A stretch of DNA of 64,000 nucleotides from Clostridia bacterium (GTDB lineage Bacteria > Bacillota > DTU025). Shown here one piece after another: positions 30,293 through 48,831 of the stretch; the first letter of the stretch is position 1; each line of letters begins with the position of its first letter. The stretch covers positions 1 to 64,000 of the forward strand of contig JAYFQW010000070.1 of NCBI GenBank assembly GCA_034926675.1, read 5' to 3'. A program made the translations under genes and the position numbers. Under the pieces are notes generated by a model, which saw nothing but the letters and a program-made list of their open reading frames with translations, made no database searches and was not told where the DNA came from.

Positions 30293-30323
30293 TGCCAATA
30301 GGCTGCAACAAGGAGGCGTAGTG

Positions 30324-30713: not shown

Positions 30714-30739
30714 CACCGGTCAATTCGGGAGGTCGCACT

Positions 30740-31153: not shown

Positions 31154-31165
31154 CAGGGTCAACCA

Positions 31166-32040: not shown

Positions 32041-32192
32041 TGTGGAGGATACCCTTCGAGGATCGCGGGAATCAACGACGCAAGGTGCGCATTGGCGGCC
32101 GCAAATCGGAGTATGGGGCCCCATCCGGCAGTTAGGGTCACGGATGCGACGGAAATCTCCACGCTGCGTCTGATAGCTATCTGTAAGACCAT

Positions 32193-32222
32193 TTGCATAA
32201 ACATGCACAGTCAAAGTATAAT
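32193..32222 (+). promoter_or_regulatory. argG promoter with ARG-box-like palindrome
   Basis: TTGCAT (32193-32198) and TATAAT (32217-32222) are 18 bases apart. TGCAT-AAAC-ATGCA at 32194-32207 overlaps the -35 box and resembles half of an ArgR target (TGAAT-N4-ATTCA type). ArgR or AhrC with arginine would block this promoter. Confidence 0.6.
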
Positions 32223-32261
32223 CATTGATATTGCCCCAGATGATCTGAGGAGGCTATTCAT

Positions 32262-33524
32262 ATGTTGTCTTCCGCTGGCAAAGTCAAGAAAGTGGTGCTG
32301 GCCTATTCTGGAGGATTGGATACATCGGTAGCTATCAAGTGGTTGCAGGAAAGCTACGGAGCTGAAGTTTTGGCGCTGGCCGTGGATGTTGGAGCCAAGA
32401 AGGACTTGGATGTGATACAGAAGAAGGCATTGGCTGTAGGAGCAGTCAAATCCCTCGTGGCCGATGCTCGGAAGTCCTTTGTGCTGGACTATGTATACCC
32501 GTGCTTGAAGGCAAACGCCATGTACGAAGGGAAGTACCCCCTGACTGCCGCGATTTCCCGCCCTCTGATCTCCAAACTTCTCGTGGAGATGGCTCATCAG
32601 GAGTGCGCCGACGCTGTCGCCCATGGGTGCACTGGCAAGGGCAATGACCAGGTCAGGTTCGACGTGTCGATCCAGGCGCTCGATCCGTCGCTCGCCATCA
32701 TTGCGCCGGTGCGCGAGTGGCCTATGTCGCGCGAGAAGGAGATCGAGTACGCAGAGGCCAACAACATCCCGGTTCCAGTCACAGTGAAGAGCCCCTACAG
32801 TGTGGACGAGAATCTCTGGGGACGCAGTGCAGAGTGCGGCGTTCTCGAAGACCCGTGGGTTGAACCGCCGGCCGACGCATACGCCATGACCACCGATCCC
32901 AGCCAGGCGCCTGATGAGCCCGAATACCTGGACATCGATTTCGAACATGGCGTTCCCGTGCGCATAGATGGCGAGGCCATGGACCCGGTGGACATGATCG
33001 AGGCTCTGAACGTCACTGCAGGCAGGCATGGCGTTGGCCGCCTTGACATGGTCGAGAACCGGCTGGTTGGGATAAAGTCGAGAGAGATCTACGAAGCGCC
33101 TGCGGCCACAGTGCTGATCGCGGCGCACCAGGATCTCGAGACCCTCACCATGCCCAGGGAGACACTCCACTTCAAGAAACTCGTCGAGCAGAAATACTCG
33201 GAGGTTGTGTATTTCGGCCTATGGTATTCGCCGCTCCGCGATTCGCTGGATGCTTTCATTGATAGCACACAGAAATCCGTCAGCGGGACTGTCAAGGTGA
33301 AGCTATACAGGGGAACATGTACTGTGGTCGGGCGCCGCTCTCCTCATTCCTTATATGATTATTCATTGGCCACCTACGACAAGGGCGACCGATTCGACCA
33401 TTCCGCAGCGGTAGGATTCATCAATGTCTGGGGTCTCCCCACGAAGGTGGCACGCCAGGCCGAGAGAAGAACGGCCTCGGGGACGTGCACTACGAACAAC
33501 GGCGTCGGGGGGAGCGCCGAATGA
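32262..33524 (+). CDS. argG: Argininosuccinate synthase
   Basis: The ATG follows GAGGAGG. The enzyme joins citrulline and aspartate with ATP in arginine synthesis. The ATP-binding P-loop [15 protein letters not shown] is at about residues 10-24. Further hallmarks are [29 protein letters not shown] and [19 protein letters not shown]. At 420 residues it is slightly longer than usual, with a short tail ending in a Gly/Asn-rich stretch. Its stop overlaps the argH start as ATGA, so the two are translationally coupled. Confidence 0.97.
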
Positions 33525-34963
33525 AGCTCTGGCAGGGCAGAACGGATGGACGCGTTGACGAGTTGGTCAACACGCTGACCACATCCCTGCCGTTCGATGT
33601 TCGTCTGTTTCGAGAGGATATCGAGGGCAGCATCGCGCATGCCCGGATGCTTGGGTTCACTGAGATAATCCGCCCCGAGGAATCATCGGAAATCATCGCT
33701 GGCCTAGAGTGCATCCTTGCCCAGATGGAGAATGGGTCGTTTGAGTTTGAGCAAGACGATGAGGACATCCATACGGCCGTGGAGCGGGCGCTGATTGCCG
33801 CCATCGGCGAGGCTGGCAAGAAACTACACACCGGCCGAAGCCGGAACGACCAGGTTGCGCTGGACATGCGCCTATGGTGTTTGCGCCGGATTGCCGCGAT
33901 CCAGGATTCCATAAAGAAACTTCAGACCGTGCTTGTGGATCTCTCCGGGCAGCACGTGACTACGATTATGCCAGGCTACACTCACCTGCAGCACGCACAA
34001 CCTGTAACGCTGGGGCATCATCTCATGGCTTACTTTTGGATGCTCCAGCGAGACTGGACGCGTTTGGCTGACTGCCGATTCCGCACCGACGTAATGCCGC
34101 TCGGCGTCGGCGCGCTGGCCGGCACTGCCTACCCACTTGACAGAGAGTTCGTCAAACGGGAACTAGGCTTCTTCCGCATCAGCGAGAACAGCCTCGATAC
34201 CGTGGCGGACCGGGATTTCGTCATCGAGCTAGTGTCTGCATGCACTCTCATCATGACCCATCTCTCGCGCCTCTGTGAGGAACTCGTGCTGTGGTCGACA
34301 TGGGAGTTCAGATTCGTCGAGCTAGAGGATGAGTACACGACAGGTTCCAGTATGATGCCTCAGAAGAAGAACCCCGATGCGGCCGAGTTGATCCGGGGGA
34401 AAACCGGCCGAGTCACGGGCGACCTCATGTCGCTTCTTATGACTATGAAAGCATTGCCGCTCGCATACAACCGAGACATGCAGGAGGACAAGGAAAGGCT
34501 ATTCGACGCCTCCGATACTGTGCTAGCTTCACTCGGAGTCATGTCCTCAATGCTTGCCACCGCCCACTTCAGAGGTGAAAGAATGGCAAGAGCGGCGTCT
34601 GCCGGTTACACTCTGGCCACCGATGTCGCGGATTTTCTAGTGGGGAAGGGCATGCCATTCCGCGATGCTCATCACCTGGTCGGGCAGATCGTCCGCGATT
34701 GTGCTGCACAGGGCATTGAGCTGGAGGAGCTCACCGTCGAAGAGTGGTCCGGCTACTCCCCGCTTCTCGACTCGGCCATCACCGGAGTGCTGAACGCAGA
34801 TCACGCCGTTGCTCGCAGATGTGTGCCTGGCGGTCCTGCGCCCGAGGAAGTGATGGATCAGATTGCCTGCGCAAGGGCCATCCTGTCGGCCCGCCCCTGC
34901 TTTCTTGTCTCCAAAGGGATATCCTCGATGATTGCCTCGAGGGTCACGTGGCCCCGCCCATAA
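33521..34963 (+). CDS. argH: Argininosuccinate lyase
   Basis: ATG at 33521 overlaps the argG stop. The 480-residue enzyme splits argininosuccinate to arginine and fumarate. Signature elements are [51 protein letters not shown] and the family loop [19 protein letters not shown]. The final 20 or so residues ([18 protein letters not shown]) do not look like the usual C-terminus and probably come from read-through into the adjoining scar that holds an ABC ATPase remnant. The catalytic core is complete. Confidence 0.96.
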
Positions 34964-34984
34964 GTTAGCGGCGTTCCATCGCCA

Positions 34985-35120
34985 TTCTCCTGGATATCAG
35001 CTCGTCCGGGCGTTCGCCCTGGAACTATCCCTCATAATACGCGATGAGCCAGTATCGGCTCTCGATGTGTCAGTCCAGGCGCAGGCACTCAAGGCATTTG
35101 AGGATCTGCGCCTGGACTGA
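34985..35120 (+). pseudogene. Remnant of a peptide ABC transporter ATPase (DppF/OppF type)
   Basis: The frame reads RAFALELSLIIRDEP then VSALDVSVQAQ then LKAFEDLRLD and a stop. This is the Walker B and D-loop region of oligopeptide ABC ATPases. The preceding residues look like a damaged signature motif (SPGYQLV for SGGQ-Q-V). Nothing else of the gene remains. It overlaps the long hairpin at 35064-35126. Confidence 0.75.
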
Positions 35121-35126
35121 CATATC
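35064..35126 (+). terminator. Long hairpin downstream of argH
   Basis: Arms 35064-35084 and 35106-35126 pair over 21 bases with one G-T position. The 21-base loop itself contains CTCAA/TTGAG. It likely ends the argGH transcript. One arm is the DSVQAQ-type coding segment of the ATPase remnant. Confidence 0.7.
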
Positions 35127-35260
35127 TCTTCATCTGCATAAGTCGGAGCCAACCATGCCCTCCTCGGGCTTCACCCATGAGATCGGATACGCGCTTTTCG
35201 AGTACAAATAGTCTCTTCCGAAGAAGGAGTCTGCATGGGAGCGTAGAATATCCAGTGGCC

Positions 35261-35298
35261 GGCACAATTGTGCCGCACAAACGTGCAAATGCTAGCAT
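35261..35298. promoter_or_regulatory. Three consecutive palindromes upstream of the SorC regulator
   Basis: GGCACAATTGTGCC (35261-35274, perfect), GCAC-AAAC-GTGC (35275-35286) and ATGCTAGCAT (35289-35298, perfect) lie end to end, finishing 24 bases before the regulator's ATG. They are good candidates for autoregulatory operators of the SorC protein and the control region of the 35-46 kb cluster. Confidence 0.55.
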
Positions 35299-35322
35299 AG
35301 GCTTGCTGTGGGAGTGTGCCTT

Positions 35323-36282
35323 ATGGGTTTCGACAAGCGCCTGCTCTATGAAGTGGCCCGTCGCTATTACGAACTGGCCATAACCCAAGAAGAGATAGCT
35401 CTCAGCCTTGGCATATCTCGTAGCCAGGTGTCGAGAGCCATCAAGCAGGCGCGCGACGAGGGAATGGTGATCATAAAGGTTATCGGGCCTGGCCTCGATT
35501 TCACCGACATCCAGGCAGAGATGTGCGCACGGTTTGGACTCCGCGAGGCCGTTGTTGTATCTGGCGAGGGTGGGCCATCTCAGCTGCTCACGCAGAACCT
35601 GGGCGTGGCGGGCGCAAGATATGTGGTCGAGTCTTTGGAGCCTGGAACCGTCATAGGTGTGTCATGGGGCGCGACTCTGCGGGAGTTGGCGGTGGCGCTT
35701 GTCGATGCCAGGGGCGCCGCCCGGGATGTCGTCGTCATTCCGCTGCTTGGAGGGCTTGGTCAGGCGAGTGCGGACCTCCAGGTGAACGATATCGCCTCCC
35801 GAGTAGCAAGCGCGCTCGGAGGGACGCATCACTACCTTCACGCACCATCCTTCGTCGATACGCCCGAGGCCCGGGCTACGATCATGGCTGACAGCAATAT
35901 CAAAACAGTAGCCGACATGTGGGCCACCGTGGACATGGCGGTGGTTGGAATCGGATGCCTCATCCGTCCATCCACCCTCATTGAAGAAGGCGGATTCCCC
36001 GAAAGCGACCTAGAGCTGCTCGAGCGCAAGGGAACAGTGGGAGACATGTGCATGAGGTTCTTCAACAGCAAAGGGGAACCTGTCGATACATCGCTGGATG
36101 AGCGGATCATCGGAGTCGGTCTCGAGCAACTCAGGCGGATCAAGTGCGTGGTGGCAGTATCAGGAGGTGTTAATAAGGCGCGTGCGATCCTCGGAGCACT
36201 AAGAACAGGTGTAGTGGATGTGCTCGTAACTGATGACATCACCGCTCGTAAGGTGTTGGATGCAGCGCAGCAGGGGCAGTAG
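35323..36282 (+). CDS. SorC-family (LsrR/DeoR-like) transcriptional regulator
   Basis: ATG at 35323 with GGGAG upstream is preferred; GTG at 35308 is an alternative. The N-terminal helix-turn-helix is RYYELAITQEEIALSLGISRSQVSRAIKQAR. The rest is the phosphosugar-binding SorC domain: PGTVIGVSWGATLRELA, VVVIPLLGGLGQ, MAVVGIGCLI and CVVAVSGGVNKARAILGAL. SorC proteins sense a phosphorylated sugar made by the pathway they control; LsrR senses phospho-AI-2. It is the first gene of a long co-directional cluster of transport and sugar-kinase genes and is its probable regulator. Confidence 0.92.
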   Translation: MGFDKRLLYEVARRYYELAITQEEIALSLGISRSQVSRAIKQARDEGMVIIKVIGPGLDFTDIQAEMCARFGLREAVVVSGEGGPSQLLTQNLGVAGARYVVESLEPGTVIGVSWGATLRELAVALVDARGAARDVVVIPLLGGLGQASADLQVNDIASRVASALGGTHHYLHAPSFVDTPEARATIMADSNIKTVADMWATVDMAVVGIGCLIRPSTLIEEGGFPESDLELLERKGTVGDMCMRFFNSKGEPVDTSLDERIIGVGLEQLRRIKCVVAVSGGVNKARAILGALRTGVVDVLVTDDITARKVLDAAQQGQ

Positions 36283-36387
36283 GCTCAGCAGGGACAAGTA
36301 GGCTCAGTGGCCGCAGCAGGCGCCGGACACAGGTCCCGGCGAACTATCATCTCCATAAGGTCATCTCTACAAGAGGAGGAACGAAAT

Positions 36388-37005
36388 ATGCCGCTCGGAC
36401 AGGGCGCCTTAGGATTAGGCGTATCGTATGCACTAGCCCTTGGTTACTTGGTGCTCATGTGGTTTTTCGGGAGCATTCTCACGAAGCAGTATCCTACTGA
36501 GCAGAAAGTTGCCTGGGACACGCGGACAATCGCCCGCGTGACTATTCTAGCTGCTGTATCAGGCGCAGGGGCAATGATCAAGATCCCGGGTCCCGCCACC
36601 ACAATTGCGTTGGATGCAGCTGCAGGCTATTTCGCGGCTGCGTTTTTCGGATGGCCCGTTGGAGCTACTGTGGCCGCCATTGGATGCTTCCTTGCCAACG
36701 CCCTAGGAGGCTTTGCAAGCTGGCTTCCAATGGTAGTTGTGTACATTTCCGGAATGGCGCTCACAGTCACCCTGGCAGTGTTTGTTGCGAAGAAGGTCAA
36801 TATCGTAGCTGCCATCGTGGTGGGCACTATAGTGAACACCCTGACATGCCTCGGCCCATGGGCCATTATGGTCGGGCCGACACTCATGATTGCCCTCTTG
36901 CCTTCACAGATAATTGGATCTGCCGTGAACGCAATAGTGGGGTTGACTGTGGCTGTGGCGCTCAAGGGCGCCCAGAACCGTAAGAGGCCCGAGTCGGTCG
37001 ACTGA
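36388..37005 (+). CDS. ECF transporter substrate-binding membrane subunit (S component)
   Basis: ATG at 36388 follows AGAGGAGGAAC; an open frame from 36307 has no such site. The 205-residue protein has about six membrane helices. Its central part (VTILAAVSGAGAMIKI, TTIALDAAAGYFAAAFFGWPVGATVAAIGCFLANALGG) matches the general ECF S-component pattern. The specific subfamily is not recognised. The ATPase and EcfT genes follow directly, so it is a dedicated transporter whose ligand should be the substrate of the downstream enzymes. Confidence 0.8.
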   Translation: MPLGQGALGLGVSYALALGYLVLMWFFGSILTKQYPTEQKVAWDTRTIARVTILAAVSGAGAMIKIPGPATTIALDAAAGYFAAAFFGWPVGATVAAIGCFLANALGGFASWLPMVVVYISGMALTVTLAVFVAKKVNIVAAIVVGTIVNTLTCLGPWAIMVGPTLMIALLPSQIIGSAVNAIVGLTVAVALKGAQNRKRPESVD

Positions 37006-37053
37006 CAAGCCCCTAGAAGAACCCAGCGAAGATCAAGGCGAGAGGTGTTCCAT

Positions 37054-38910
37054 TTGGCCGCTACGATCATCTCACTCAAGGATGTCGCGTTCAACTACAA
37101 AGGATTCAAACGCCATGCTCTCGACGGCGTCTCAATCGATGTGAAACAGGGTGAATGCGTGGCTATCCTCGGTCCTACCGGCGCCGGGAAGAGCACGCTT
37201 GCATGTGTTCTGAACGGTACGGCGCCCTTGTTCGCGGAGGGCAACCTCACCGGCGAAGTGAGCGTCGACGGCATGGTTCCGTCACAGGTGGGCACCGCCA
37301 GAATGGCCTCAAGGGTCGGGCTGGTCTTTGGCGACCCCGATGCTCAGCTCTTTGGGATGACTGTTGAGGAGGATGTGGCTTTCGGGCCGTCCAACCTCGG
37401 CCTGGACTATGAAAGCATAATGGACAGAGTGAGCGCGTCCGTATCTGAGATGCGCCTCACCGGCCTGGAGAAGCGTGCTCCGCACAGGCTATCGGGCGGG
37501 CAGAAACAGGCAACGGCGATCGCTGGAGTATACGCGATGCTTCCGAAGATCATGGTCCTTGATGAACCCACGTCGATGCTCGATCCGGAGGGAAAGGCCA
37601 GAGTATTCGGGATTGTACAGAAGCTCAAGGAAGCACTCGGCGTAACTGTAGTTCTGATAGAGCAGGAGGTCGACGACATCCTGCAGTTGGCGGACAGGGT
37701 ATTCGTTATGAGATCGGGCAAGTTCGCACTGTCGGGAAGCCCGCGCGAGGTTTTCAGCAGAGTCGACGAACTGAGGGCGGCTGGAGTCCGTGTTCCTCAG
37801 ATGGTCGAGTTCGGCGGCCTGATTGGCGCCAAGGAGACGCCCTTCACTCTGGATGAGGCCGTGTCTACGGTGAGAAGGGGCGCCTGGACCGGCAGGGCCG
37901 TCGGCGCGCATGGCGTGAGACCACACGAGTCTGCCGCGCCACACGAGTCTGCTGCGCCTTCCGAGTCTGCTGCGCCTTCCGAGTCTGCCGCGCGTGCGGA
38001 GCCGTCCGGGCCCGCGGCGCCTGCCGCGCGTGGCGCGTCTGCCAAACCAGACAAGTCGGATGCCTTGGAAACCCCTGCCGTCCAGGCGATCGACGTTCAG
38101 TATAAGTATCCCATGGGCGCTGTTGCTCTCACTGGCGTTAATCTTGTAATTAGCCAGGGCGACTTCGTGGCCATTGTGGGGCAAAACGGAGCCGGAAAAA
38201 CCACCCTCACCCGGCACTTCAACGGACTGCTCAAGCCCACCGCGGGTGATGTGCGCGTCTTCGGCAGGTCGTCGCGGGAGATGCACACGACTGAGCTGTG
38301 CCGAGTCGTGGGATACGTGTTCCAGAACCCAGATGAGCAGCTCTTCTGTACCAGCGTGGAAGAGGAGCTGAGATTCGGCCCTGGCAACATCGGGCTGGAC
38401 CAGAAGGATACTGATCAATCGGTTGAGGAGATTCTGGCTGACATCGGCCTCGCGAAGTACAGGGATGTATGGCCAAAATACCTCACCAAGGGCGAAAGGC
38501 AGAGGCTTGCGCTTGCGTCGGTCGTGGCCATGAATCCGAAAGTCCTGATAGTAGATGAGCCCACAACCGGCCTCGACTGGGTTGAGTCTATTCAGATACT
38601 CGATTATCTCAGCAGACTGCGCACGGAACGCGGAAAGACGGTAATCATCATCACCCATGACATGAACGTGGTGAGCCTCTACGCGAGGAGAGTCGTCGTG
38701 ATGGCCAACGGAAAGGTCGTCGGGGATGGCAGCCCCAGGGAAGTGTTCTCTCAGCCAGATCTGATGACACTCGCGTGCCTGAGGCGTCCGCCCATTGCGG
38801 ATCTTTCGGATGCCCTATGGGGCCAGGTCTTGCTCACGCCTGAGGAGGCCGCGGACAGACTGCTAAGCTCATCGAAAGCGACCGAGAGGTGTGCAGAAAG
38901 TGATTGTTGA
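37054..38910 (+). CDS. ECF transporter ATPase, two domains fused (EcfA-EcfA')
   Basis: TTG at 37054 lies 6 bases past AGAGGTG; GTG at 37045 is an alternative start. Domain 1 has GPTGAGKST, LSGGQKQATAIAG and MVLDEPTSML. Domain 2 (from about residue 345) has GQNGAGKTT, LTKGERQRLALASV and LIVDEPTTGLDW. Both sites look competent, and the two signature motifs are degenerate in different ways. They are joined by a low-complexity linker at about 290-340 made of HESAAP/SESAAP repeats. One polypeptide replaces the usual EcfA1/EcfA2 pair. The end overlaps the ecfT start by 20 bases. Confidence 0.93.
   Translation: MAATIISLKDVAFNYKGFKRHALDGVSIDVKQGECVAILGPTGAGKSTLACVLNGTAPLFAEGNLTGEVSVDGMVPSQVGTARMASRVGLVFGDPDAQLFGMTVEEDVAFGPSNLGLDYESIMDRVSASVSEMRLTGLEKRAPHRLSGGQKQATAIAGVYAMLPKIMVLDEPTSMLDPEGKARVFGIVQKLKEALGVTVVLIEQEVDDILQLADRVFVMRSGKFALSGSPREVFSRVDELRAAGVRVPQMVEFGGLIGAKETPFTLDEAVSTVRRGAWTGRAVGAHGVRPHESAAPHESAAPSESAAPSESAARAEPSGPAAPAARGASAKPDKSDALETPAVQAIDVQYKYPMGAVALTGVNLVISQGDFVAIVGQNGAGKTTLTRHFNGLLKPTAGDVRVFGRSSREMHTTELCRVVGYVFQNPDEQLFCTSVEEELRFGPGNIGLDQKDTDQSVEEILADIGLAKYRDVWPKYLTKGERQRLALASVVAMNPKVLIVDEPTTGLDWVESIQILDYLSRLRTERGKTVIIITHDMNVVSLYARRVVVMANGKVVGDGSPREVFSQPDLMTLACLRRPPIADLSDALWGQVLLTPEEAADRLLSSSKATERCAESDC
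37921..37994 (+). repeat. 18-bp in-frame tandem repeats in the ATPase linker
   Basis: Four copies of an 18-bp unit of the type GAGTCTGCTGCGCCTTCC encode HESAAP, HESAAP, SESAAP and SESAAR. They lie between the two ATPase domains and are expected to vary in number between strains. Confidence 0.75.
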
Positions 38911-39733
38911 GTATGAGAGCAAGTCCACGCCGATGCACCGGCTTGACCCCAGGGCCAAGTTCGCATGGATGCTCGCCGCCATTGTCATCAGCGTGATCTG
39001 GACTAACCCCATCTACCTGGTTGGGTTGTGCGTGGCGATAATCGGGTTCGGCTTCCTCGCGGAATTCCCGTGGGCCAAGGTGAAAGGAGTGCTCTCCTTC
39101 ATCCTTGTGATTACCGCAATCATCACCCTTGTTCAGGGCGCCACCTACGTTCCGAAAACCGTGACTATTGCGGACCCGACCAGGGTGCTGTTTCACATCA
39201 TTCCAGGCTGGATTCCCGGCATCGGCCCTGCGGGCGCAGTTCGAATCGGCGGATTCCTATACGGTATCGGAATGGCGCTCAAAGTGTCTGTAGTCCTCGT
39301 AGTAGTGGCCATTTTCGGGTATCTCACGTCGCCATCGGAGATAGTCCAGATAATTGCGCGCGTCCCGTTCGTGCCGTACCAGGTCGGGTTCGTCATGTCC
39401 ACTGCATGGAAATTCATACCTGTGGTCCAGACTCAGATGCGAACCTTAATGGACGCGCATAGGTCCAGAGGAGTCGATTTCGAACAGGGGACCCTGACTC
39501 AGAAGGTCAGGAAGACCTCCAACGTCGTGTTTCCGCTGTTCGCCAATGCCCTATCGATGGCGGACACCATGGCTCTGGCCATGGAATCGAGGGCGTTCGG
39601 CTGCAGCAAGAAGTTCACTTTCATCAGACCATACAGAATGACGCTGGCTGACCGGCTTGCACTGTGGGGCTCGATCTTTGCCATGATTGCGAGCATCGTG
39701 TGCCTTGCCGTGTGGAAGATGGGGGCGCTGTAG
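38891..39733 (+). CDS. ecfT: ECF transporter transmembrane coupling protein
   Basis: A GTG at 38891 overlaps the ATPase gene, with a second GTG 9 bases further in frame. The 280-residue protein begins with the EcfT pattern TPMHRLDPRAKFAWML, has about six hydrophobic segments, and carries the coupling motifs MDAHRSRGVDF and ALAMESRAFG (the Ala-Arg-Gly boxes that touch the ATPase). It links the S component to the fused ATPase. The kinase gene begins 1 base after its stop. Confidence 0.93.
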   Translation: MQKVIVEYESKSTPMHRLDPRAKFAWMLAAIVISVIWTNPIYLVGLCVAIIGFGFLAEFPWAKVKGVLSFILVITAIITLVQGATYVPKTVTIADPTRVLFHIIPGWIPGIGPAGAVRIGGFLYGIGMALKVSVVLVVVAIFGYLTSPSEIVQIIARVPFVPYQVGFVMSTAWKFIPVVQTQMRTLMDAHRSRGVDFEQGTLTQKVRKTSNVVFPLFANALSMADTMALAMESRAFGCSKKFTFIRPYRMTLADRLALWGSIFAMIASIVCLAVWKMGAL

Positions 39734-39734
39734 G

Positions 39735-40682
39735 GTGAAGGGATCCGTGGTTTGCCTTGGCGCCGCAGCAATGGACCTCATATTCCAAGTTGATCGATTT
39801 CCGCTGGCAGATGAGATGGTCTTCGCATCGGGCGAACCAGGGCTCTTTCCCGGAGGATCGACTGCGAACATTGCCGCAGGTCTTGCTCGCCTGGGCGTTC
39901 GCGCTCGGTTTGTGGGGAAGGTGGGGCCAGATGCGAACGGGGATGCGCTTCGAGCTGCCTTTGAACACGACGGCGTCGACACCAAATGGCTCATGACAGA
40001 GGCAGATGGAAGGACGGCGCAGACCATCATAGTGGTCGACCACAGTGGCAACAGGATCATCTACTCGCTGGGCGGCACGGCTTTGCTGGAAACCCCCGAC
40101 GAGCTGGATAGCGCGATCATGGACGGGGTTGGCCTGCTATATGTGGGCGAAGCCTTTCCCGCTGTGGCCCAGAGGGCGATCTCACAGGCGCGTTCCTGCG
40201 GGGCGATAGTGGCATATGGGCCAGGGGGCGCCACGTCGTGGATTGAGCCGGACGTACTGCTCGACCTGCTGGGGAAGGCAGACTATGTGCTTGTCTCCCG
40301 TGGTGAACTCAGGGCGATCACCTCCTTCGAAAAGCCCCGCGATGGCGCGATTTGTCTGCTGAATCAGGGCGCAAGGAATGTGGTGGTCACCCTGGGCAGT
40401 GCGGGATCAGAGTGCTATGGTGGGGAAGCTCCCCATGATCCCTGGCGCGTGGACGCCTTCCGAGTTCAGCCTGTCGATACTACGGGAGCGGGAGACTCGT
40501 TTGCAGCTGGGTTCGCGGCCGGGCTGATCGAAGGTCGTCTGGTGCAGGAATGCCTCGTTCGAGGCAATGCCATGGCTGCCATCGCCATTTCCCGAGTCGG
40601 CGCGCGAGAGGCGCTGCCAACCCGCAAGGAGTTGGATGCGTTCCTCGGAACACATCTGGTTGAAGGCGGTGATGGCGTGTGA
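39735..40682 (+). CDS. PfkB-family carbohydrate/nucleoside kinase
   Basis: GTG at 39735 is chosen; the open frame from 39687 lies inside ecfT. The 315-residue protein has the ribokinase fold: VCLGAAAMDLIFQVDRFPL, PGGSTANIAAGLARLG and the catalytic DTTGAGDSFAAGFAAGL with its anion hole and base Asp. The sequence does not tell ribose, nucleosides and other sugars apart. It overlaps the ADP-ribosylglycohydrolase gene by GTGA. The same kinase-hydrolase pairing is found in the E. coli yegV-yegU genes. Confidence 0.9.
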   Translation: MKGSVVCLGAAAMDLIFQVDRFPLADEMVFASGEPGLFPGGSTANIAAGLARLGVRARFVGKVGPDANGDALRAAFEHDGVDTKWLMTEADGRTAQTIIVVDHSGNRIIYSLGGTALLETPDELDSAIMDGVGLLYVGEAFPAVAQRAISQARSCGAIVAYGPGGATSWIEPDVLLDLLGKADYVLVSRGELRAITSFEKPRDGAICLLNQGARNVVVTLGSAGSECYGGEAPHDPWRVDAFRVQPVDTTGAGDSFAAGFAAGLIEGRLVQECLVRGNAMAAIAISRVGAREALPTRKELDAFLGTHLVEGGDGV

Positions 40683-41734
40683 CAGGCGATGCTTGTAAAC
40701 GCACCCACGGCGTTCGGCCCATCCTCGACCCGGACCGGGTTGCGGGCTGTGTGGCAGGAGTGGCGATCGGCGATGCGATGGGCATGCCAGTGGAGTTCAT
40801 GACGCGCCAGGAGATACGGGCGATATACGGCAGGCTTGATCGTTTCGTCGCTCCGCGCCCCGACCACATCCACGCTGGGATGGGGGCGGCCAGGATTACC
40901 GACGACACAGAGCAGACCCTTGCCATCATCGATGCCCTCGATGAACACGGAACGATAACCCCGGAAATCGCGGCAGGGGCATATCTGAAATGGGCGGACG
41001 AATGCGACGCCTTCAGCTCATCAGTGCTCGGTCCAAGCTCCAGGCGAGCCTTGGAGAGGCTCCAGGCCGGGGAGGATCCACGCACTACGGGTTCGTCAGG
41101 GGATACCGTGGGCGCCGCCATGCGAGTCGCCCCGATTGGCATCGTGAATGCCGGAGATTTGGAGTCGGCGGCGCAGGAATGCGTCATGTCCTGCCTTCCC
41201 ACCCACGGCGTGAGCATAGCCATCGGCGGGGCCTGCGCGGTTGCCTGCGCGGTCGCTGCCGCGGTAGTGGCCGGCTCAGTTGATGAGATCATCAGCGCAG
41301 CCCTATTCGGTGCGGAATACGGCGAGAGCCGCGGGGTGAAATGGGCCGGGGCAACGGTAGCCGCCCGCATCAGGCTCGCGCTGCGGATTGTGGAGGAGAG
41401 CGGCGGGGAAACGGAGGCTCTGGATGGCCTCTACAGCATCGTTGGCGTTGGGATGCTTCCCACCGAACTTGTCGCTACTGCCATCGGGATTGTAAGGCTG
41501 CACCAGGCCGACTGCTGCAAAGCAACGATCTCGGCCGTGAACATGGGCGGGGATGCCGACACTCTGGCTTCGATAGTCGCAGCGATAACCGGGGGCTTCT
41601 CGGGCATTGGGCGGTTCCCCGCAGAGTGGACGACAGCTGTTGAGAGGGTCAACCGTCTGGATTTCCAGCGGCTCGCCGATGTTCTTGTTGCTGTAAGAGA
41701 AAGGAGACCCCAACATGACGGGTGTGGATGTTAG
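40679..41734 (+). CDS. ADP-ribosylglycohydrolase-fold (DraG/YegU-like) hydrolase
   Basis: The GTG start overlaps the kinase stop. The 351-residue protein has the ARH signature: AGVAIGDAMGMPVEF, the metal-binding ITDDTEQT (about residues 70-77) and NMGGDADTLAS near the C-terminus, with the di-Mg ligands in place. Enzymes of this fold cleave N-glycosidic bonds of ADP-ribose and, in some clusters, are thought to act on nucleoside-like metabolites. The catabolic context argues for a free small-molecule substrate and not for protein de-ADP-ribosylation. Confidence 0.9.
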   Translation: MTGDACKRTHGVRPILDPDRVAGCVAGVAIGDAMGMPVEFMTRQEIRAIYGRLDRFVAPRPDHIHAGMGAARITDDTEQTLAIIDALDEHGTITPEIAAGAYLKWADECDAFSSSVLGPSSRRALERLQAGEDPRTTGSSGDTVGAAMRVAPIGIVNAGDLESAAQECVMSCLPTHGVSIAIGGACAVACAVAAAVVAGSVDEIISAALFGAEYGESRGVKWAGATVAARIRLALRIVEESGGETEALDGLYSIVGVGMLPTELVATAIGIVRLHQADCCKATISAVNMGGDADTLASIVAAITGGFSGIGRFPAEWTTAVERVNRLDFQRLADVLVAVRERRPQHDGCGC

Positions 41735-42467
41735 GTTACGAAGGATTTTCAGAGATGGCAAGGCAGTCATCTGTCCGCTGGATTATGGCGGGTTCATGGG
41801 ACCTGTAGCAGGAATAGAGGATCCCGCTTCAGCAGTCGGCAAGGTAGTGGCGGGAGGCGCAGATGCAATTCTTGTGAATCCCGGCCTTGCGAAAAGCGAG
41901 TGGAACGCCTACGCGGGGAAGACAGGATTGATCGTCAGGGTGACCGGCGGCGCAACGAAATACAGCCCAAATCCTGGTTTCCACACACTTGTGTGCAGTG
42001 TCAGCGAGGCCTGTGCGATCGGCGCCGACGCCGTCTGCGTCATGGTGCTTGTTGGATCAGAACAGGAGCAAGAGATGTTCGAGATAATGGGAGATGTGGT
42101 GTCTGATGCCCATGCCCTGGGGATTCCAGTTCTTGCAGAGGTGATACCTTGCGATCCTGACCACAACTTCGACCCAGAGTGGATATCTGTATGCGCGAGA
42201 GTTGGGTACGAGCTTGGGGCGGACGTGATAAAGACCTACTTTACGCCCGAGGGTTTTGCGGACATAATCCGGGCTTGTCGAGTGCCGCTCGTGATTGCCG
42301 GCGGCCCGAAGGTGGAGGATCCGGATATTGTGGTGGCTCGAGCGATGGCCTGCGGAGCGGCTGGAATAGCGTTCGGCCGTAACGTGTTCCAGGCGCCGAA
42401 TCCCGAGGCCAAGGTGCGCGAGCTGCGACAGATTGTACACGGGAATCCCGCCGGGGAGGTGCGCTGA
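41715..42467 (+). CDS. LsrF/DhnA-type class I aldolase
   Basis: The ATG follows AAGGAG and overlaps the previous gene by 20 bases. The 250-residue TIM-barrel protein belongs to the DeoC/FbaB/LacD group: AVICPLDYGGFMGPVAG, AILVNPGLAKSEW, the Schiff-base Lys in LGADVIKTYFTPEGF and the phosphate-binding VIAGGPKVEDP and GIAFGRNVFQ. Relatives include LsrF, which processes phospho-AI-2, and archaeal-type fructose-bisphosphate aldolases. It should cleave or transfer from a phosphorylated keto-sugar made by the kinases here. Confidence 0.87.
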   Translation: MTGVDVRLRRIFRDGKAVICPLDYGGFMGPVAGIEDPASAVGKVVAGGADAILVNPGLAKSEWNAYAGKTGLIVRVTGGATKYSPNPGFHTLVCSVSEACAIGADAVCVMVLVGSEQEQEMFEIMGDVVSDAHALGIPVLAEVIPCDPDHNFDPEWISVCARVGYELGADVIKTYFTPEGFADIIRACRVPLVIAGGPKVEDPDIVVARAMACGAAGIAFGRNVFQAPNPEAKVRELRQIVHGNPAGEVR

Positions 42468-42469
42468 GC

Positions 42470-43504
42470 TTGAAAGCGGCAGTGTACCACGGACCGCGGG
42501 ACCTGAGGGTCGAGAGCATTGACGATCCTGTACTGCAGCCAGGAGATGCCCTCCTTAAGGTGGGTTTCTGCGGTGTGTGCGGAACAGACGTGAAGACATA
42601 TCTGCGCGGTCATCACATGTTCCCCCCTCCCTGCGTTCTTGGACACGAGGTTGTGGGCAAGATCGTGGAGATGAAGGAGCCACTTTCGACCACCGACATC
42701 AGGGTCGGTGATGTCGTGGCGGTGGCGCCCTATGTGCCATGCTACAGCTGCACCCTGTGCAGTCATGATCGGCACGAGCTGTGCAGACACAAGGATTGGA
42801 TAGACGGCGCATTCGCAGAGTACGTCAGGGCGCCGGCAGGCGTGCTTCAAAAGGGAACGTGCAAAGTGCCGCCGGGTATGGATCCACGGGTCGCATGCCT
42901 CAGCGAACCACTGGCATGTTGTGTGAATGCTGTCACAGATTCGCGAGTTAGCCTGGGCGACACGGTGCTCATCATAGGATCCGGGCCCATGGGCCTGCTC
43001 ATGCTGGAGCTGTGTAAAGCCGTGGGGGCATCGCGGGTGCTTGTTAGCGAGCCGAACGAGTGGCGGAGATCCGAGGCGGAACAGCGCGGGGCCATTGTCG
43101 CCAGTCCCTTGGATTCGGATGTGCCTGCATGGATCCGGGATCACACCGACGGGGAAGGCGCCGACATCGTGTTCATATGCGTAGGCACTGCCGATGCGGT
43201 GAAGGTGGGAATGGACTCGGTGAGGCAGGGAGGCCTAGTCAACATCTTCGGAGGGCTTCCCAGCGGCTCGGAACTGGCCATCGACTCAAAGCGTCTGCAC
43301 TATGACGAGGTAACCCTCACTGGCAGTTTCGGTTTCACACCGTACCACTTCAGAACGGCGCTGGCCATGTTGGCTTCCGGAGGCGTTCATTCCAGCGGCC
43401 TGATAACACACGAGTACGCTATAAATGACGCCCGAACGGCCCTGGAGACAGCTGGTTCTGGTGAGGGCCTGAAGATCCTTCTGAAGGTGGACGGCGATGA
43501 GTGA
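42470..43504 (+). CDS. Zinc-dependent medium-chain alcohol/polyol dehydrogenase
   Basis: A TTG start follows GGGGAGG. The 344-residue enzyme has the catalytic zinc site (FCGVCGTD, GHEVVGK), the structural zinc cysteines CYSCTLCSHDRHELC and the NAD-binding VLIIGSGPMGLLMLELCKA. It resembles sorbitol/threonine dehydrogenases that oxidise a secondary alcohol to a ketone. In this cluster it could oxidise a sugar alcohol before or after phosphorylation. It overlaps the FGGY kinase gene. Confidence 0.92.
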   Translation: MKAAVYHGPRDLRVESIDDPVLQPGDALLKVGFCGVCGTDVKTYLRGHHMFPPPCVLGHEVVGKIVEMKEPLSTTDIRVGDVVAVAPYVPCYSCTLCSHDRHELCRHKDWIDGAFAEYVRAPAGVLQKGTCKVPPGMDPRVACLSEPLACCVNAVTDSRVSLGDTVLIIGSGPMGLLMLELCKAVGASRVLVSEPNEWRRSEAEQRGAIVASPLDSDVPAWIRDHTDGEGADIVFICVGTADAVKVGMDSVRQGGLVNIFGGLPSGSELAIDSKRLHYDEVTLTGSFGFTPYHFRTALAMLASGGVHSSGLITHEYAINDARTALETAGSGEGLKILLKVDGDE

Positions 43505-44969
43505 TGCCGCCTTCGTGGGCATAGACATCGGGACATCCACAGTGAAGGCCGGGATCTGGCGCAACGACGGGGGCTTTCGGGCCGCCTATGGCCCGGCCGA
43601 GGTCCTCCGACTCCCCGGCGGTGGCGCCGAGCAGGATCCGCATGTTCTGTGGAATGCGGCGACGGCCTGCCTGAGGCAGGTTTTGTACGGCCAGGACCCG
43701 CAGAGCATCAAGGGCATAGGGCTTTCGGGGCATGGGCCGTCTCTTCTCGCAGTCGATAGCAACGGGAAGCCGCTGTGCAACGTGATCACGTGGATGGATG
43801 AGAGGCCAGGTCGGGACGTGGCAGCGAGCGATTCCCTTGCCGCTGCCGCCTGTGGCTCGCAGGGCGCTCCATCCGAGAACCATGGGCCGTCGTTCGAAGG
43901 GACTGCGCTGTGGATTCTGTCGCACCTAGCTTGCGAGGCAAGTGCGGCGCCCTGCGCACCTGCACCAGCGACCTTTCTGCAGCCCAAGGATTTCATCGGG
44001 CTTCGACTAACAGGGGAGGCATGCATCGACTCATCTGCCGCCTCGTGCATGGCGTGGTTTTCGCGTTGCGCCGATGGGTTTCCAAGAGTCGTGGAATCGT
44101 GGCAGCCCATAGGGAGAGTGAGCGGCAGGTTTGCTCAAGAGGCAGGCTTGCCCGAAGGGATTCCGGCTGCGGCAGGCGGGATTGACGCGTTTGTGGAGGC
44201 TTTAGGCGTAGGCGCCATCGAGCCCGGAATCGCCTGCGAATCCACTGGAACGTCCACATGCATATCCGCGGTGGCGCCGGATTGCGCAGACCTGCCCACA
44301 GTGGAGCATGTGATCCCCGGAGTCCGGCTCAGCGTCACGCCGATCTCGTTCACTGGCGGAGCACTGTCGTGGGCCATGTCGGTGTTGTTCCCAGAGGCGT
44401 TCAAGGATTCAAGGGACTGGAGTCACACTGTGGCTGAGGCCCTCCAGCGCTCAGCGCCAGGGGCGGCAGGGCTCACATTCATACCTCACCTGATAGGCGA
44501 GCGTAGCCCGAGGAGTAGCCCTGGCGCTGCGGGGGCGTTCGTTGGGCTGCGTCCGGGGCACAATCGGTTCGATATGCTCCGGGCGGTGCTGGAAGGCTGC
44601 GCATACGCGGCTCGAGAAAGCTTGCAGGTGTGCGCGCCGTCTCTTGGTGTTGCAGAGTTCAGGGCAGTGGGGTCTGGCGCCAAGCACGAGGGTTGGCTTC
44701 AGATGAAAGCTGACGTAATGGAGGCTCCAGTCGCAAGGATGGCTGTCCGAGACGGAGCGCTCCTCGGCGCCATTATGCTAGCGGGTATTGCCGCGGGGGA
44801 GTTCACCGACGCCAGGGAGGCCGTTCGGGCGTTGGTGCGCCAGGACGAGAGGTTCGAGCCGCGTGATTCGGCGATTGGGGATTATCGCAGGGGCTATGCG
44901 GCCTACTGCAGGACCGAAAAGGGACTTGAAGAGATGTGGCGCGAGAATTGTGACCTCTCGCGAGTGTGA
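43497..44969 (+). CDS. FGGY-family carbohydrate kinase (xylulokinase/LsrK-like)
   Basis: The ATG lies within the dehydrogenase 3' end. The 490-residue protein starts with the phosphate-binding FVGIDIGTSTVKAGIW, has GLSGHGPSLLAVDSNGKPL and VITWMDER as in xylulokinases, and a C-terminal domain with the ATP motif FRAVGSGAKHEGWLQMKAD. FGGY kinases phosphorylate ketoses, polyols or AI-2. A second sugar kinase in one cluster suggests two phosphorylatable pieces are produced from the substrate. Confidence 0.92.
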   Translation: MSDAAFVGIDIGTSTVKAGIWRNDGGFRAAYGPAEVLRLPGGGAEQDPHVLWNAATACLRQVLYGQDPQSIKGIGLSGHGPSLLAVDSNGKPLCNVITWMDERPGRDVAASDSLAAAACGSQGAPSENHGPSFEGTALWILSHLACEASAAPCAPAPATFLQPKDFIGLRLTGEACIDSSAASCMAWFSRCADGFPRVVESWQPIGRVSGRFAQEAGLPEGIPAAAGGIDAFVEALGVGAIEPGIACESTGTSTCISAVAPDCADLPTVEHVIPGVRLSVTPISFTGGALSWAMSVLFPEAFKDSRDWSHTVAEALQRSAPGAAGLTFIPHLIGERSPRSSPGAAGAFVGLRPGHNRFDMLRAVLEGCAYAARESLQVCAPSLGVAEFRAVGSGAKHEGWLQMKADVMEAPVARMAVRDGALLGAIMLAGIAAGEFTDAREAVRALVRQDERFEPRDSAIGDYRRGYAAYCRTEKGLEEMWRENCDLSRV

Positions 44970-46207
44970 TGGGGGTTCGATGGGTGAAATTGCGAACTGC
45001 GCGCATACCCCGTGGAATACGGCTCATAGCTCTGGGCATGTTCCTCTGGGGATTCGGGTACGGCCTGCATGCCTACGTGCTGCCGGTTCACTTGCGCTCC
45101 ATAGGGTGTAGCCCGGCGCAGGTTGGATTCGTTTTCTCAGTATCAATGGCAGCGATGGCGGCCTCGTGTATACCCGGGGGCATTCTTGCGGATAGGTGCG
45201 ACCGGCGAAAGGTGATATTCCTGTCGTGGCTTGCAGGGGCGCCTTCGGTCATTCTCTACTACGTTGCAAAGGACTACCGAATGGCTGCACTAGGCATCGC
45301 CATCTACTCTGGCTCCATGATGGGGTATCCGGCTCTAAACGCATATTCCCAGTCATGCGCCCGCGATGGGGAGTCAGGCATGACGTTCGGAGTGATAAAC
45401 GCGGCGTTTGCCGCAGGGATGATAGCGAGCCCTGCAGTGGGCGGATACCTGTCTTCTGTATGGGGCGTTCGCGGCGTCTTCCTGTTGTCGTGTGCATTCT
45501 TCCTAATTGCATCGGGCGTTGTGAGCCTCCTGCCGCCAGAGCCCGAGCGCGGCGCCTTGAGCAAAGCCAGCGGCCGAGGCGACTTCTTCGGCTCGCTTAG
45601 GAACAGGAGATTCGTGGCATTTCTAGTGTGCTATTCCGTGTGTGCTTTCGCCTACTACATGGTGCAGCCGCTTGTGCCTCAGTATCTCACGGATGCGCGC
45701 AGGAACAGTGTCGGGATTGTTGGCGCGTTAGGATCGATAATGTCATTGGGGCAGACGCTGATCACAGTGGGTGTGGGCAGAGCGGCGGATCGCCGCGGCG
45801 CCCTCGTGGCTGTGGGTGGAAACCTGCTGGTGTTCGTCGTGGCCCTTCTATGCTTCGTCGCATTCTCGGCGAGCGCCGCCACTGTGGCCTCCCTGTTCCT
45901 ACTCGGGGGCTTCATGGCTGGGCAGGGAGTCGTACTGGCCGGAGTTGGAGAGGTGCTCGGAGACCGCGCTGATGGCAAGGCTTTCGCCCTCTTCAATCTG
46001 GCGATGTCTGGAGTGTCGGTGGCAGGTCCGTACCTTGGAGGGCTGATGTACTCGGTTTCCCAGGGCGGTCCGTTCTACGCCGCCGCGGGGATCACCGCAG
46101 TTGGCGGGTTGCTCCTGCTCCAGCAGGGGCTTTCGGCACGTGGTGCAAGGGGAGGTGGTTGTCCTCGGGAGGAGCTTGGCAAGAACCTGGAATCGGCGAA
46201 GATCTAG
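44966..46207 (+). CDS. MFS transporter
   Basis: A GTG start overlaps the kinase stop. The 413-residue protein has 12 predicted membrane segments, with the MFS loop GGILADRCDRRKVIFLSW between helices 2 and 3 and a matching GRAADRRGALV in the second half. It is the last gene of the cluster. It may export a by-product or import a related substrate alongside the ECF system; in E. coli a nucleoside-type MFS gene (yegT) accompanies yegUV. Confidence 0.88.
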   Translation: MMGVRWVKLRTARIPRGIRLIALGMFLWGFGYGLHAYVLPVHLRSIGCSPAQVGFVFSVSMAAMAASCIPGGILADRCDRRKVIFLSWLAGAPSVILYYVAKDYRMAALGIAIYSGSMMGYPALNAYSQSCARDGESGMTFGVINAAFAAGMIASPAVGGYLSSVWGVRGVFLLSCAFFLIASGVVSLLPPEPERGALSKASGRGDFFGSLRNRRFVAFLVCYSVCAFAYYMVQPLVPQYLTDARRNSVGIVGALGSIMSLGQTLITVGVGRAADRRGALVAVGGNLLVFVVALLCFVAFSASAATVASLFLLGGFMAGQGVVLAGVGEVLGDRADGKAFALFNLAMSGVSVAGPYLGGLMYSVSQGGPFYAAAGITAVGGLLLLQQGLSARGARGGGCPREELGKNLESAKI

Positions 46208-46238
46208 TTGAAAACGACAATTAGGAGGAGGAACAGAA

Positions 46239-46754
46239 ATGCGCAGATTAGCAATGGCAATTGGGCTGTGTGCACTCTTGATGCTCGTGGGATCCATGTG
46301 TCTCGCTGCTCCTGCAGCTCCTACAGGCAAGGTCGTACTCACGGTGATAGGCCCTATCGATGAGAAGAACTGCGAAAAGGGATTCGAGTTCGACATGGCG
46401 ATGCTTGAGAAGGTCGGGATCCAGATCTGCGAAACTCGCGACCCGTGGCTTGGCAACAAGAAATACGGCGGAGTGCTCATCTCTGAAATACTCAAGTACG
46501 TCGGCGCCTCCAAGAGCGCTTCCGAGATTCTTGCCATCGCAAAGGATGGTAAGAAGGTCACGATAAAGGCTGAAGACTTGGCGAAGTACCCGATCATGCT
46601 TGCGACCCAGGATGGCGGGAAGGCAATTGGATCAGGCTTGGGCGGCCCCATTAAGCTTGTATTTCCATATGCCGGCTTCCCGGAGCTTGAGGCAGCCTAC
46701 AATAAGGAGCAGTGGAACTGGTTCGTCGTCACCCTTGAAGTGAAGGTGAAGTAG
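46239..46754 (+). CDS. Small exported SUOX/molybdopterin-binding-fold protein
   Basis: The ATG follows TAGGAGGAGG. A signal peptide (cut near LAAPAAP) is followed by about 145 residues. The pattern LTVIGPID, FDMAMLEKVG, TRDPWLGNKKYGGVLISEIL and DGGKAIGSGLGGPIKLVFP resembles the compact sulfite-oxidase-fold family often annotated as molybdopterin-binding. The cofactor-binding Cys of true oxidases is not evident, so a binding role is likelier than catalysis. The next gene starts 5 bases downstream and is presumably cotranscribed. Confidence 0.65.
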   Translation: MRRLAMAIGLCALLMLVGSMCLAAPAAPTGKVVLTVIGPIDEKNCEKGFEFDMAMLEKVGIQICETRDPWLGNKKYGGVLISEILKYVGASKSASEILAIAKDGKKVTIKAEDLAKYPIMLATQDGGKAIGSGLGGPIKLVFPYAGFPELEAAYNKEQWNWFVVTLEVKVK

Positions 46755-46759
46755 TATCC

Positions 46760-48004
46760 ATGATCAGGCATAGAGGAGCAAAACTGCTCATCGCTGCGCT
46801 GATAGCGCTTGTGGCGGCGGCGCCGGTGTGTGGCGCCGCCCGCGGCGCGGGGCAGCATCCACCAACTATCGTGCTGATCGTGATAGATGGATGCCCCGCC
46901 CGCTCGTTCGATGACCTTCCGAAATCTTCGTTCCTAACGACCATGCGAGAACAGGCGGAGTGCGGATTCAGCGTCATCGACACAGTGTTCCCATCATCGA
47001 CCGCAGCTGGACACGGTGCAATCTTCACCGGCAGCTATCCTCAGGAGAACGGGGTGACGGGAAAGGAGTACGTGCGCGATGATGGCGAGCTCGGACGGTT
47101 TGACTCTCCATCGCTCATAACCGGACGTACGCTTTTCGAGGTCGCCCACGCAGTGGGCCTCAGGACTGCGATGATCTCTGCCAAAGGAAATGTTCGCCTG
47201 ATGCTCTCTAAGGACGTCGATGCCTCAGTGGGCCCAGATGCTGTGCCGGAATGGGTTCTCGACACCGTCGGGCCTCCTCCTGACAAGGCGACGCAGTACC
47301 AGGATTTCTCGGGCTGGCATCGTGGACTCGACCAATGGGTCTTGAATGCTGCTGAGGCTTACCTGAGGCAAGACAGTGCTCCGGCGTTCGTTGGCATTAA
47401 CCTCGGAAGCCTCGATAAGCTCGGGCACAGGTACGGCCCCACTCCTGCAGAGGAAACCCTTCAGACCCTCATCTCCATAGATGAGGGGATCAGCGGACTT
47501 GTGCGCACTCTCGATGAGACATGTCCGGGAGACTGGAGCCTGCTCGTCACTGCTGATCACGGGATGACAAGGGTTGTGAATCCGATCCTGGCCAACGATA
47601 TAGTCGACGCGGCCGTCGGCGGGCAGGCCCTTGTGACCCTGGATGGGGGAGTCCTGTATGTTTGGGCCGAAGAGGGCATCGACGGGCTCGTCCAGACGCT
47701 TTCGGGCGCCGAAGGTGTGGCCGAGGTCATTGGCCCGAAAGATAAGGAAAGGCGGGTCGCGCTCCACATAGATAACCCGCGCACCCCGCCGCTCATTGCA
47801 GTGGCCCAGAGAGGCCACATGTTCATAGAGTCGGAAGCGTTCATGGAATACACTCTGGGAAGCCACGGAACCACAATCGATAGCGACGTTCGTGTGCCCA
47901 TCATGCTCTGTGGACCGAGGGCCGCTGGAGTCAGCCTGAAGGGCGTGAACTCGGTAACTCAGATAGCAGGGATAGTGGAGAGTATGCTCGGCATCGAACG
48001 ATAG
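46760..48004 (+). CDS. Secreted NPP-type phosphodiesterase/AP-superfamily enzyme
   Basis: The 414-residue protein has a signal peptide ending near VCGAARG. The metal and nucleophile motifs are LIVIDGCPARSF, FPSSTAAGHGAIFTGSYP, GSLDKLGHRYG, TADHGM and LGSHGT, the standard set of nucleotide pyrophosphatase/phosphodiesterases. It is the second such enzyme in the window, after the one at 2997-4478, and the two differ in sequence. It ends ahead of a strong bidirectional hairpin facing the cytochrome gene. The substrate is unknown. Confidence 0.85.
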   Translation: MIRHRGAKLLIAALIALVAAAPVCGAARGAGQHPPTIVLIVIDGCPARSFDDLPKSSFLTTMREQAECGFSVIDTVFPSSTAAGHGAIFTGSYPQENGVTGKEYVRDDGELGRFDSPSLITGRTLFEVAHAVGLRTAMISAKGNVRLMLSKDVDASVGPDAVPEWVLDTVGPPPDKATQYQDFSGWHRGLDQWVLNAAEAYLRQDSAPAFVGINLGSLDKLGHRYGPTPAEETLQTLISIDEGISGLVRTLDETCPGDWSLLVTADHGMTRVVNPILANDIVDAAVGGQALVTLDGGVLYVWAEEGIDGLVQTLSGAEGVAEVIGPKDKERRVALHIDNPRTPPLIAVAQRGHMFIESEAFMEYTLGSHGTTIDSDVRVPIMLCGPRAAGVSLKGVNSVTQIAGIVESMLGIER

Positions 48005-48119
48005 GGGCGATGCCGTTCTTGGCGCCGACACCGAGTTCTCCAAGCATACATCGAACACTGGATGGACATAGCAGGTGGCGACCCAAGAGACGGCGACCCA
48101 GCAGGCGCCTACCCAGCGT

Positions 48120-48156
48120 ACGCGGACCGCCAGGGATGATCCCTGGCGGTCCGCGT
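48120..48156. terminator. Bidirectional terminator, 17-bp perfect stem
   Basis: Arms 48120-48136 and 48140-48156 pair perfectly around a TGA loop, between the convergent phosphodiesterase and cytochrome genes. GC-rich, it should stop transcription from both sides. Confidence 0.8.
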
Positions 48157-48215
48157 GCTATCCGCTCACCTTGATGGCCATACCTGCCAATGTCCACTGG
48201 CGCTTCGTCTGTGCA

Positions 48216-48800: not shown

Positions 48801-48831
48801 AGCGTGTACCTCCGTTCTGGCCGTGCCACTG

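Follow-up and report, generated by a model that had tools for sequence, protein, structure and literature searches.

A conserved twelve-gene operon of anaerobic, uncultured Bacillota with a CblT-related ECF importer and an ADP-ribosylglycohydrolase, and its possible role in dismantling aromatic alpha-ribosides

Gene content and extent of the operon

The operon described here lies in a window of 64,000 nucleotides (the whole stretch of DNA analysed, positions 1 to 64,000 of contig JAYFQW010000070.1 in GenBank assembly GCA_034926675.1) from a Clostridia bacterium. A first-pass annotation had drawn attention to ten co-directional, mostly overlapping genes at 35261-46207, in which a SorC regulator and an energy-coupling factor (ECF) importer are combined with PfkB and FGGY kinases, an ADP-ribosylglycohydrolase (ARH), an LsrF-type aldolase, a zinc alcohol dehydrogenase (ADH) and a transporter of the major facilitator superfamily (MFS). 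Profile matches confirm that all ten genes are present, intact and of the families named, and most overlap or are 1-39 bp apart, with a gap of 105 bp between the SorC and S component genes. The proposed end at 46207 had to be moved, as two more genes follow at 46239-46754 and 46760-48004 after gaps of 31 bp and 5 bp, respectively. Both are found downstream of the MFS gene, in identical order, in those relatives with the window-like ECF arrangement (designated type A) that have contigs long enough, and the system therefore comprises twelve genes and ends at 48004. The operon is real, conserved and previously undescribed; its protein families are all known already, and their combination and the role proposed below are new to us.

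The first gene (35323-36282, + strand, as are all those that follow) predicts a SorC/DeoR-type regulator with a sugar-phosphate-binding domain (PF04198, 5.6e-70; the DeoR model at 1.8e-66 is under its cut-off). A complete ECF importer comes next, made up of an S component (36388-37005; PF07155, 2.3e-8), fused ATPases A and A' with two ATP-binding cassette (ABC) domains (37045-38910; ECF_ATPase_1 and ECF_ATPase_2 models above cut-off) and a T component (38891-39733; PF02361, 3.7e-27). The PfkB-family kinase (39735-40682; PF00294, 1.4e-55) is ribokinase-like, ribokinases being its closest solved structures. Starts were corrected to ATG at 35323 for SorC, ATG at 36388 for the S component and GTG at 39735 for PfkB. 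The ARH-fold glycohydrolase, a proposed alpha-ribosidase (40679-41734; PF03747, 6.1e-59, 200 bits against a cut-off of 26.2), is followed by a class I aldolase of the DhnA/LsrF type (41715-42467; PF01791, 9.4e-43), in which Lys173 of the IKTYF motif is invariant. The zinc ADH (42470-43504; PF08240 and PF00107) is of the polyol/threonine dehydrogenase type; threonine, sorbitol and xylitol dehydrogenases, as well as one described as a zinc-binding dehydrogenase, are among the solved structures closest to it. An FGGY carbohydrate kinase (43497-44969; PF00370 and PF02782), with a xylulokinase as its closest solved structure, precedes the MFS transporter (44966-46207; PF07690, 8.9e-39; drug and sugar efflux models match weakly), a candidate exporter of an aromatic remainder. 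The last two genes predict a secreted PruR-like protein with a pterin-binding fold (46239-46754) and a secreted nucleotide pyrophosphatase/phosphodiesterase of the AlkP superfamily (46760-48004; PF01663, 2.9e-32). Beside the end of the operon, an open reading frame on the opposite strand (48216-48845, -) is rich in CxxCH motifs and resembles a multihaem cytochrome.

Regulation

The putative SorC operator consists of two tandem GCACAnnTGTGC-type palindromes at 35263-35288 (+ strand) and is conserved 5' of SorC in type-A loci. With up to 3 mismatches allowed this is the sole match in the window, where 0.03 would be expected. Wherever the cluster contig of a genome extends this far, the site is present with 0-3 mismatches. 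The cluster operator is the only perfect site in genome G000, all others there having at least 2 mismatches. Across the nine genomes searched, operator-like sites away from the cluster have 2-3 mismatches, and no additional regulon member was found. The operator is thus unique to the cluster, and SorC most likely controls this operon alone. An Rfam scan of 30000-50000 detected no element, and hence no cobalamin riboswitch at the cluster. Further 5' of the operator, at 35220-35250, is a block AAGAAGGAG...GCGTAGAAT that has similar counterparts in most type-A loci and is promoter-like, though not of the sigma-70 consensus.

Conservation and related gene clusters

The complete gene order was found again in the family and order of the source organism and in a third family within the phylum (families f1, f2 and f51), so the possibility that these genes never occur together elsewhere does not hold and the single pathway suggested by the first-pass annotation gains support. 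A search of 399 genomes of the phylum with the aldolase gave 14 matches of at least 421 bits, the remainder being at or below 214 bits, and all 14 loci are flanked by cluster genes, some of them cut by contig ends. Synteny in three families together with a unique, conserved operator therefore argues for one dedicated system. Apart from one fragment, the named records are metagenome-assembled genomes of uncultured Bacillota, Firmicutes or Clostridia, several of which presumably come from biogas or digester studies, judging by their names. The exception is a cluster fragment in a record titled Armatimonadota (L080), the aldolase of which is 83% identical to that of the window; either mis-binning or transfer could account for it. 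Scans of viral contigs with the ARH and S component as queries found no relatives.

A second arrangement, type E, consists of an ARH-aldolase-ADH-FGGY core behind a sugar ABC importer. In a scan of named genomes, other Bacillota were found to have it (L093-L097, with one locus truncated at a contig end), with a GntR regulator and a CUT1-type importer upstream and without PfkB or ECF genes. MFS and iron-type ADH genes often follow the core. The iron-type ADH is located 3' of it in L093 (14408-15556), L094 and L097, as if for disposal of an aldehyde, and in some type-E loci it is joined there by a gene for either a TIM-barrel isomerase-like protein or a malate/lactate dehydrogenase. Type-E aldolases share 52-57% identity with that of the window, other aldolases reaching at most 41%, and the type-A and type-E aldolases join in the tree with support of 100/100. 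ARH, aldolase, ADH and FGGY have been kept together behind a different importer and therefore form a unit that outlasts importer replacement.

ADH-aldolase-FGGY modules without ARH are common in the phylum, which suggests a general routine of oxidation, phosphorylation and aldol cleavage, possibly a widespread polyol-type pathway that has not been named. Among loci that lack ARH, L059, L060, L062, L209, L211, L221 and L236 have ADH and aldolase genes with FGGY and/or SorC, in part with ABC importers.

The S component and CblT

No NCBIfam model matched the S component, and searches of Protein Data Bank sequences, with the single sequence or a profile, returned nothing meaningful. A tree built from 86 S proteins places the nine cluster S components in a single clade (100/99), which joins the CblT group with support of 100/99; both are separate from the RibU proteins associated with FMN riboswitches and from other S proteins. 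The CblT rows of this tree were selected by similarity to the window S component and the remainder by Pfam, a bias in its sampling. Of 25 relatives of the joint clade that are outside the clusters, 22 adjoin a gene for an AIRS-family, CblS-like protein of the alpha-ribazole kinase type, and a cobalamin riboswitch is present at 13 of those CblT-group loci. The first-pass annotation had assigned the S component to no recognised vitamin class, and this can be corrected: it belongs to the sister group of CblT, the transporter of alpha-ribazole, the nucleoside of the B12 lower ligand. The S component thus comes close to a known vitamin transporter, which would have counted against the first-pass reading, without being one, since the cluster proteins fall outside the CblT clade proper and have changed residues. 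Gly61, Lys65, Asp76, Met123, Asn150 and Asn181 are common to both; an invariant CblT His is replaced by Cys100, Gly151 by Thr and Leu174 by Gln. The predicted model of the cluster S component includes an extra N-terminal helix and gives a weak S-fold match to RibU and PanT (probability 0.57-0.99, E 0.3-0.8). We read this protein as a CblT relative whose substrate is probably altered.

Genome G059 carries both CblT and a cluster S component, and G000 also has an FMN-riboswitch RibU. The window operon includes no CblS gene, and CobS and CblS are found in only 2 and 3 of the 10 cluster genomes, respectively; assembly of B12 is therefore not the purpose of the operon. In G000, a frame of 748 aa (L225, 5252-7498) that includes an ABC ATPase, CobU and an AIRS/CblS-like domain is located beside CobS and may be a fusion; L226 of G006 has a similarly long frame.

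The ARH and its other operons

The residues of the binuclear metal site of the ARH, T74-D75-D76, D292, D294 and T295, in the TDDT and GGDxDT motifs, are invariant. Alpha-ribazole is an alpha-N-riboside. ARH1 and ARH3 cleave alpha- but not beta-N-ribosides, and O-linked ones as well (PMC9738213). ARH genes were also found in a second type of operon in seven f51 genomes of two genera (L266, 4335-11064, and L287-L292; the L289 contig ends before CblS and CblT), with the order GntR, CblT, CblS, a fused EcfA (EcfAA'), EcfT and ARH. In L266 the ARH gene begins 36 bp past EcfT, with a clear ribosome-binding site, and no cobalamin riboswitch was detected at this operon. G059 and G097, which belong to this family, lack CobS, and CblS in these operons may thus serve catabolism. 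A CRISPR array with 21 repeats listed is found near the L266 operon (186-1559). Non-ECF importers accompany ARH elsewhere: L293 (356-8988) has the order GntR, ARH, PfkB, substrate-binding protein, ABC protein, two permeases and a CblS-like gene, and L267 combines ARH and PfkB with a nucleoside ABC importer of the Bmp/PnrA type.

The ARHs of these operons (types A-F) form one clade (80/89), outside of which are YegU and most other ARHs sampled. Two poor rows (L240 and L248) were kept in this tree, and the groupings of types A, B and E are free of them. The kinship with YegU implied by an earlier comparison with E. coli yegVUT is accordingly not seen. On the other hand, the suggestion that a riboside enters by ECF and would be cut by the ARH is supported by the CblT lineage of the S component and by the operons that join ARH to CblT. 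Taken with the alpha specificity of ARHs and the intact metal site, these features point to aromatic alpha-ribosides as the class to which the substrate probably belongs.

The PruR-like protein and the phosphodiesterase

The gene at 46239-46754 encodes a small PF00174-like protein, about 170 aa long and with a signal peptide as judged by eye, which was matched to the PruR structures 7rkb (phmmer, 2e-19) and 7kos (hmmsearch, 2.4e-24). Its model has a predicted local distance difference test score (pLDDT) of 84 and the SUOX-like fold of PruR, with PruR structures as best matches (TM-score 0.76-0.89; 31-33% identity for the closest). Close homologues turned up solely in cluster-bearing genomes. 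PruR, which acts with DcpA in pterin signalling, binds small pterins via Trp160 and Tyr104 (PMC13259868). In the window protein, which shares the secreted form, size and fold, Trp160 is retained as W161; however, Tyr104 is replaced by an invariant Lys105 and Asn102 by Asp, and the neighbours are a phosphodiesterase and an importer instead of a DcpA-type regulator. This protein may plausibly bind a pterin. The phosphodiesterase also has a signal peptide by eye, and its residues D43, T81, D219, H223, D266, H267 and H369, the metal ligands and nucleophile expected in the AlkP superfamily, are invariant.

Proposed function

Methanopterin is composed of a pterin, an arylamine, a 1-deoxyribitol, an alpha-ribofuranose and a phosphodiester to hydroxyglutarate. 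It was a candidate before the PruR match was found, since its parts fit the enzymes, and the PruR-like fold then added a link to pterins. We place at about an even chance the proposal that this SorC-controlled operon captures, imports and dismantles an exogenous aromatic alpha-D-riboside, most likely of the methanopterin type; the substrate and each catalytic step are deduced from gene content and kinship. The secreted PruR-like protein would bind the pterin and the secreted phosphodiesterase would cut off the charged tail, after which the CblT-lineage S component with EcfAA'T would import the riboside. The ARH would hydrolyse the alpha-ribofuranosyl bond and PfkB would phosphorylate the freed ribose. 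The zinc ADH would then oxidise the freed ribityl chain, FGGY would phosphorylate its end, and the class I aldolase would split it into dihydroxyacetone phosphate (DHAP) and an aryl-acetaldehyde, leaving the remainder to be exported by the MFS transporter. Such a sequence, in which a polyol chain is oxidised, phosphorylated and then split by a retro-aldol reaction, suits the families of the ADH, FGGY kinase and aldolase, and in type-E clusters the downstream iron-type ADH could take the aldehyde. Action of the dehydrogenase and aldolase on the sugar part, as first suggested, seems less likely than that these enzymes handle a polyol-type part while the ribose goes to PfkB.

Methanopterin is the first choice because all twelve genes are given a job, though this specific assignment is tentative and falls somewhat short of even likelihood. 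A literature search on methanopterin degradation, yegU/yegV, DhnA with FGGY, and alpha-ribazole with ADP-ribosylglycohydrolase returned no matching pathway, and we know of no described pathway for methanopterin breakdown. Several points weigh against this assignment. The match between operon and molecule was reached by reasoning over structures, and kinship to CblT by itself points to alpha-ribazole. ECF importers usually carry small vitamins and the methanopterin core is bulky, and the predicted S structure is of low confidence (pLDDT 61). The two substitutions in the PruR-like protein mean that its ligand may be other than a pterin, the PF01663 protein could be a phosphatase, and genes for a PruR-like protein, phosphodiesterase and PfkB are absent next to the core of type-E clusters.

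The leading rival, less likely but to be taken seriously, is that the operon catabolises or scavenges alpha-ribazole along with other alpha-nucleosides of cobamide lower ligands. The phosphodiesterase would free the nucleosides from cobamides, the CblT-like S component would import them, PfkB and ARH would yield the base and ribose-5-phosphate, and the MFS transporter would export the base. The sister relationship to CblT is a more direct link than any to methanopterin, the operon joining CblT, CblS, ECF and ARH genes exists, and G000 has CblS and CobS, yet no separate CblT was found there. Bacteria and archaea are known to release alpha-ribazole in free form (PMC5643483; PMC8281238). However, ADH, FGGY, aldolase and PruR-like protein are left without a role, and the Cys in place of the CblT-invariant His, the other CblT-specific changes, the missing riboswitch and the rarity of CobS and CblS among cluster genomes all count against it. 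Alpha-ribazole salvage by CblT and CblS (Gray and Escalante-Semerena 2010, as cited in PMC6461909 and PMC6167548) resembles the window system in that its S component belongs to one wider clade with the window protein, import is by ECF, the operon includes a kinase and, in one CblT-CblS operon type, an ARH is present. The window operon differs in lacking CblS and a cobalamin riboswitch, in being under the control of SorC, in the changed residues of its S component and in its complete set of catabolic genes.

An ordinary yegTUV-type pathway to which a sugar module has been added, acting on a nucleoside-like riboside or one derived from ADP-ribose or NAD and with the released ribose as its chief gain, is unlikely. 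ARH, PfkB and a transporter do form the trio of E. coli yegTUV, and the related ARH-PfkB operon has the Bmp-type importer. However, the ARH is no close relative of YegU, the S component is of CblT lineage and not a nucleoside importer, and the ECF import, PruR-like protein and phosphodiesterase have no yegTUV counterpart; ADH, FGGY and aldolase, which accompany ARH in both types of cluster, would also be unexplained. Slightly less likely still is the presence of two unrelated modules under one promoter, namely one for riboside salvage, running from the S component to ARH, and one for polyol use in general, with the aldolase, ADH, FGGY and MFS genes. The abundance of ARH-less modules favours this, but the cluster aldolase and FGGY are specific relatives of the ones adjoining ARH in type E, and a single operator and tight overlaps throughout bind the genes together.

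Catabolism of a ribityl cofactor (riboflavin, FAD or F420) through a RibU-like importer would suit the PF07155 match, and a ribityl chain would suit ADH, FGGY and aldolase; it is nevertheless very improbable, as none of these cofactors has an alpha-riboside bond for the ARH, and riboflavin was rejected on the placement of the S component apart from the RibU that G000 itself has. Processing of autoinducer-2 (AI-2), suggested by the set of SorC, FGGY and DhnA/LsrF-family genes shared with the lsr operon, was rejected on the aldolase and FGGY trees and has next to no probability: LsrF groups with L059, L060 and L062 (99/93), LsrK lies outside the FGGY group (the autoinducer-2 kinase model scores 69 bits against a cut-off of 528), LsrG and the LsrACDB importer are lacking, and ARH, PfkB, ADH and ECF would have no role in AI-2 use.

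Pseudouridine catabolism by PsuK and PsuG pairs a PfkB kinase with a glycosidase, and polyol pathways follow a logic of oxidation, kinase and aldolase. The window operon resembles both, with a glycosidase of another fold, and we know of no system that combines them in this way.

Implications

If alpha-ribazole were the substrate, the operon would break down a building block of B12, and to our knowledge no such catabolic route has been described. Under the methanopterin proposal, it would be the first dedicated degradation pathway for methanopterin, or for an archaeal pterin cofactor related to it, by which bacteria living beside methanogens would gain ribose and DHAP and release an aryl-pterin; we hold this tentatively, at the same strength as the substrate assignment. 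If correct, the CblT group of ECF importers would reach beyond B12 salvage, a PruR-like protein would serve in nutrient capture instead of signalling, and an ARH subfamily would gain a metabolic role outside ADP-ribosylation, as small-molecule alpha-ribosidases. It would also give a first view of what becomes of archaeal cofactors within methanogenic communities.

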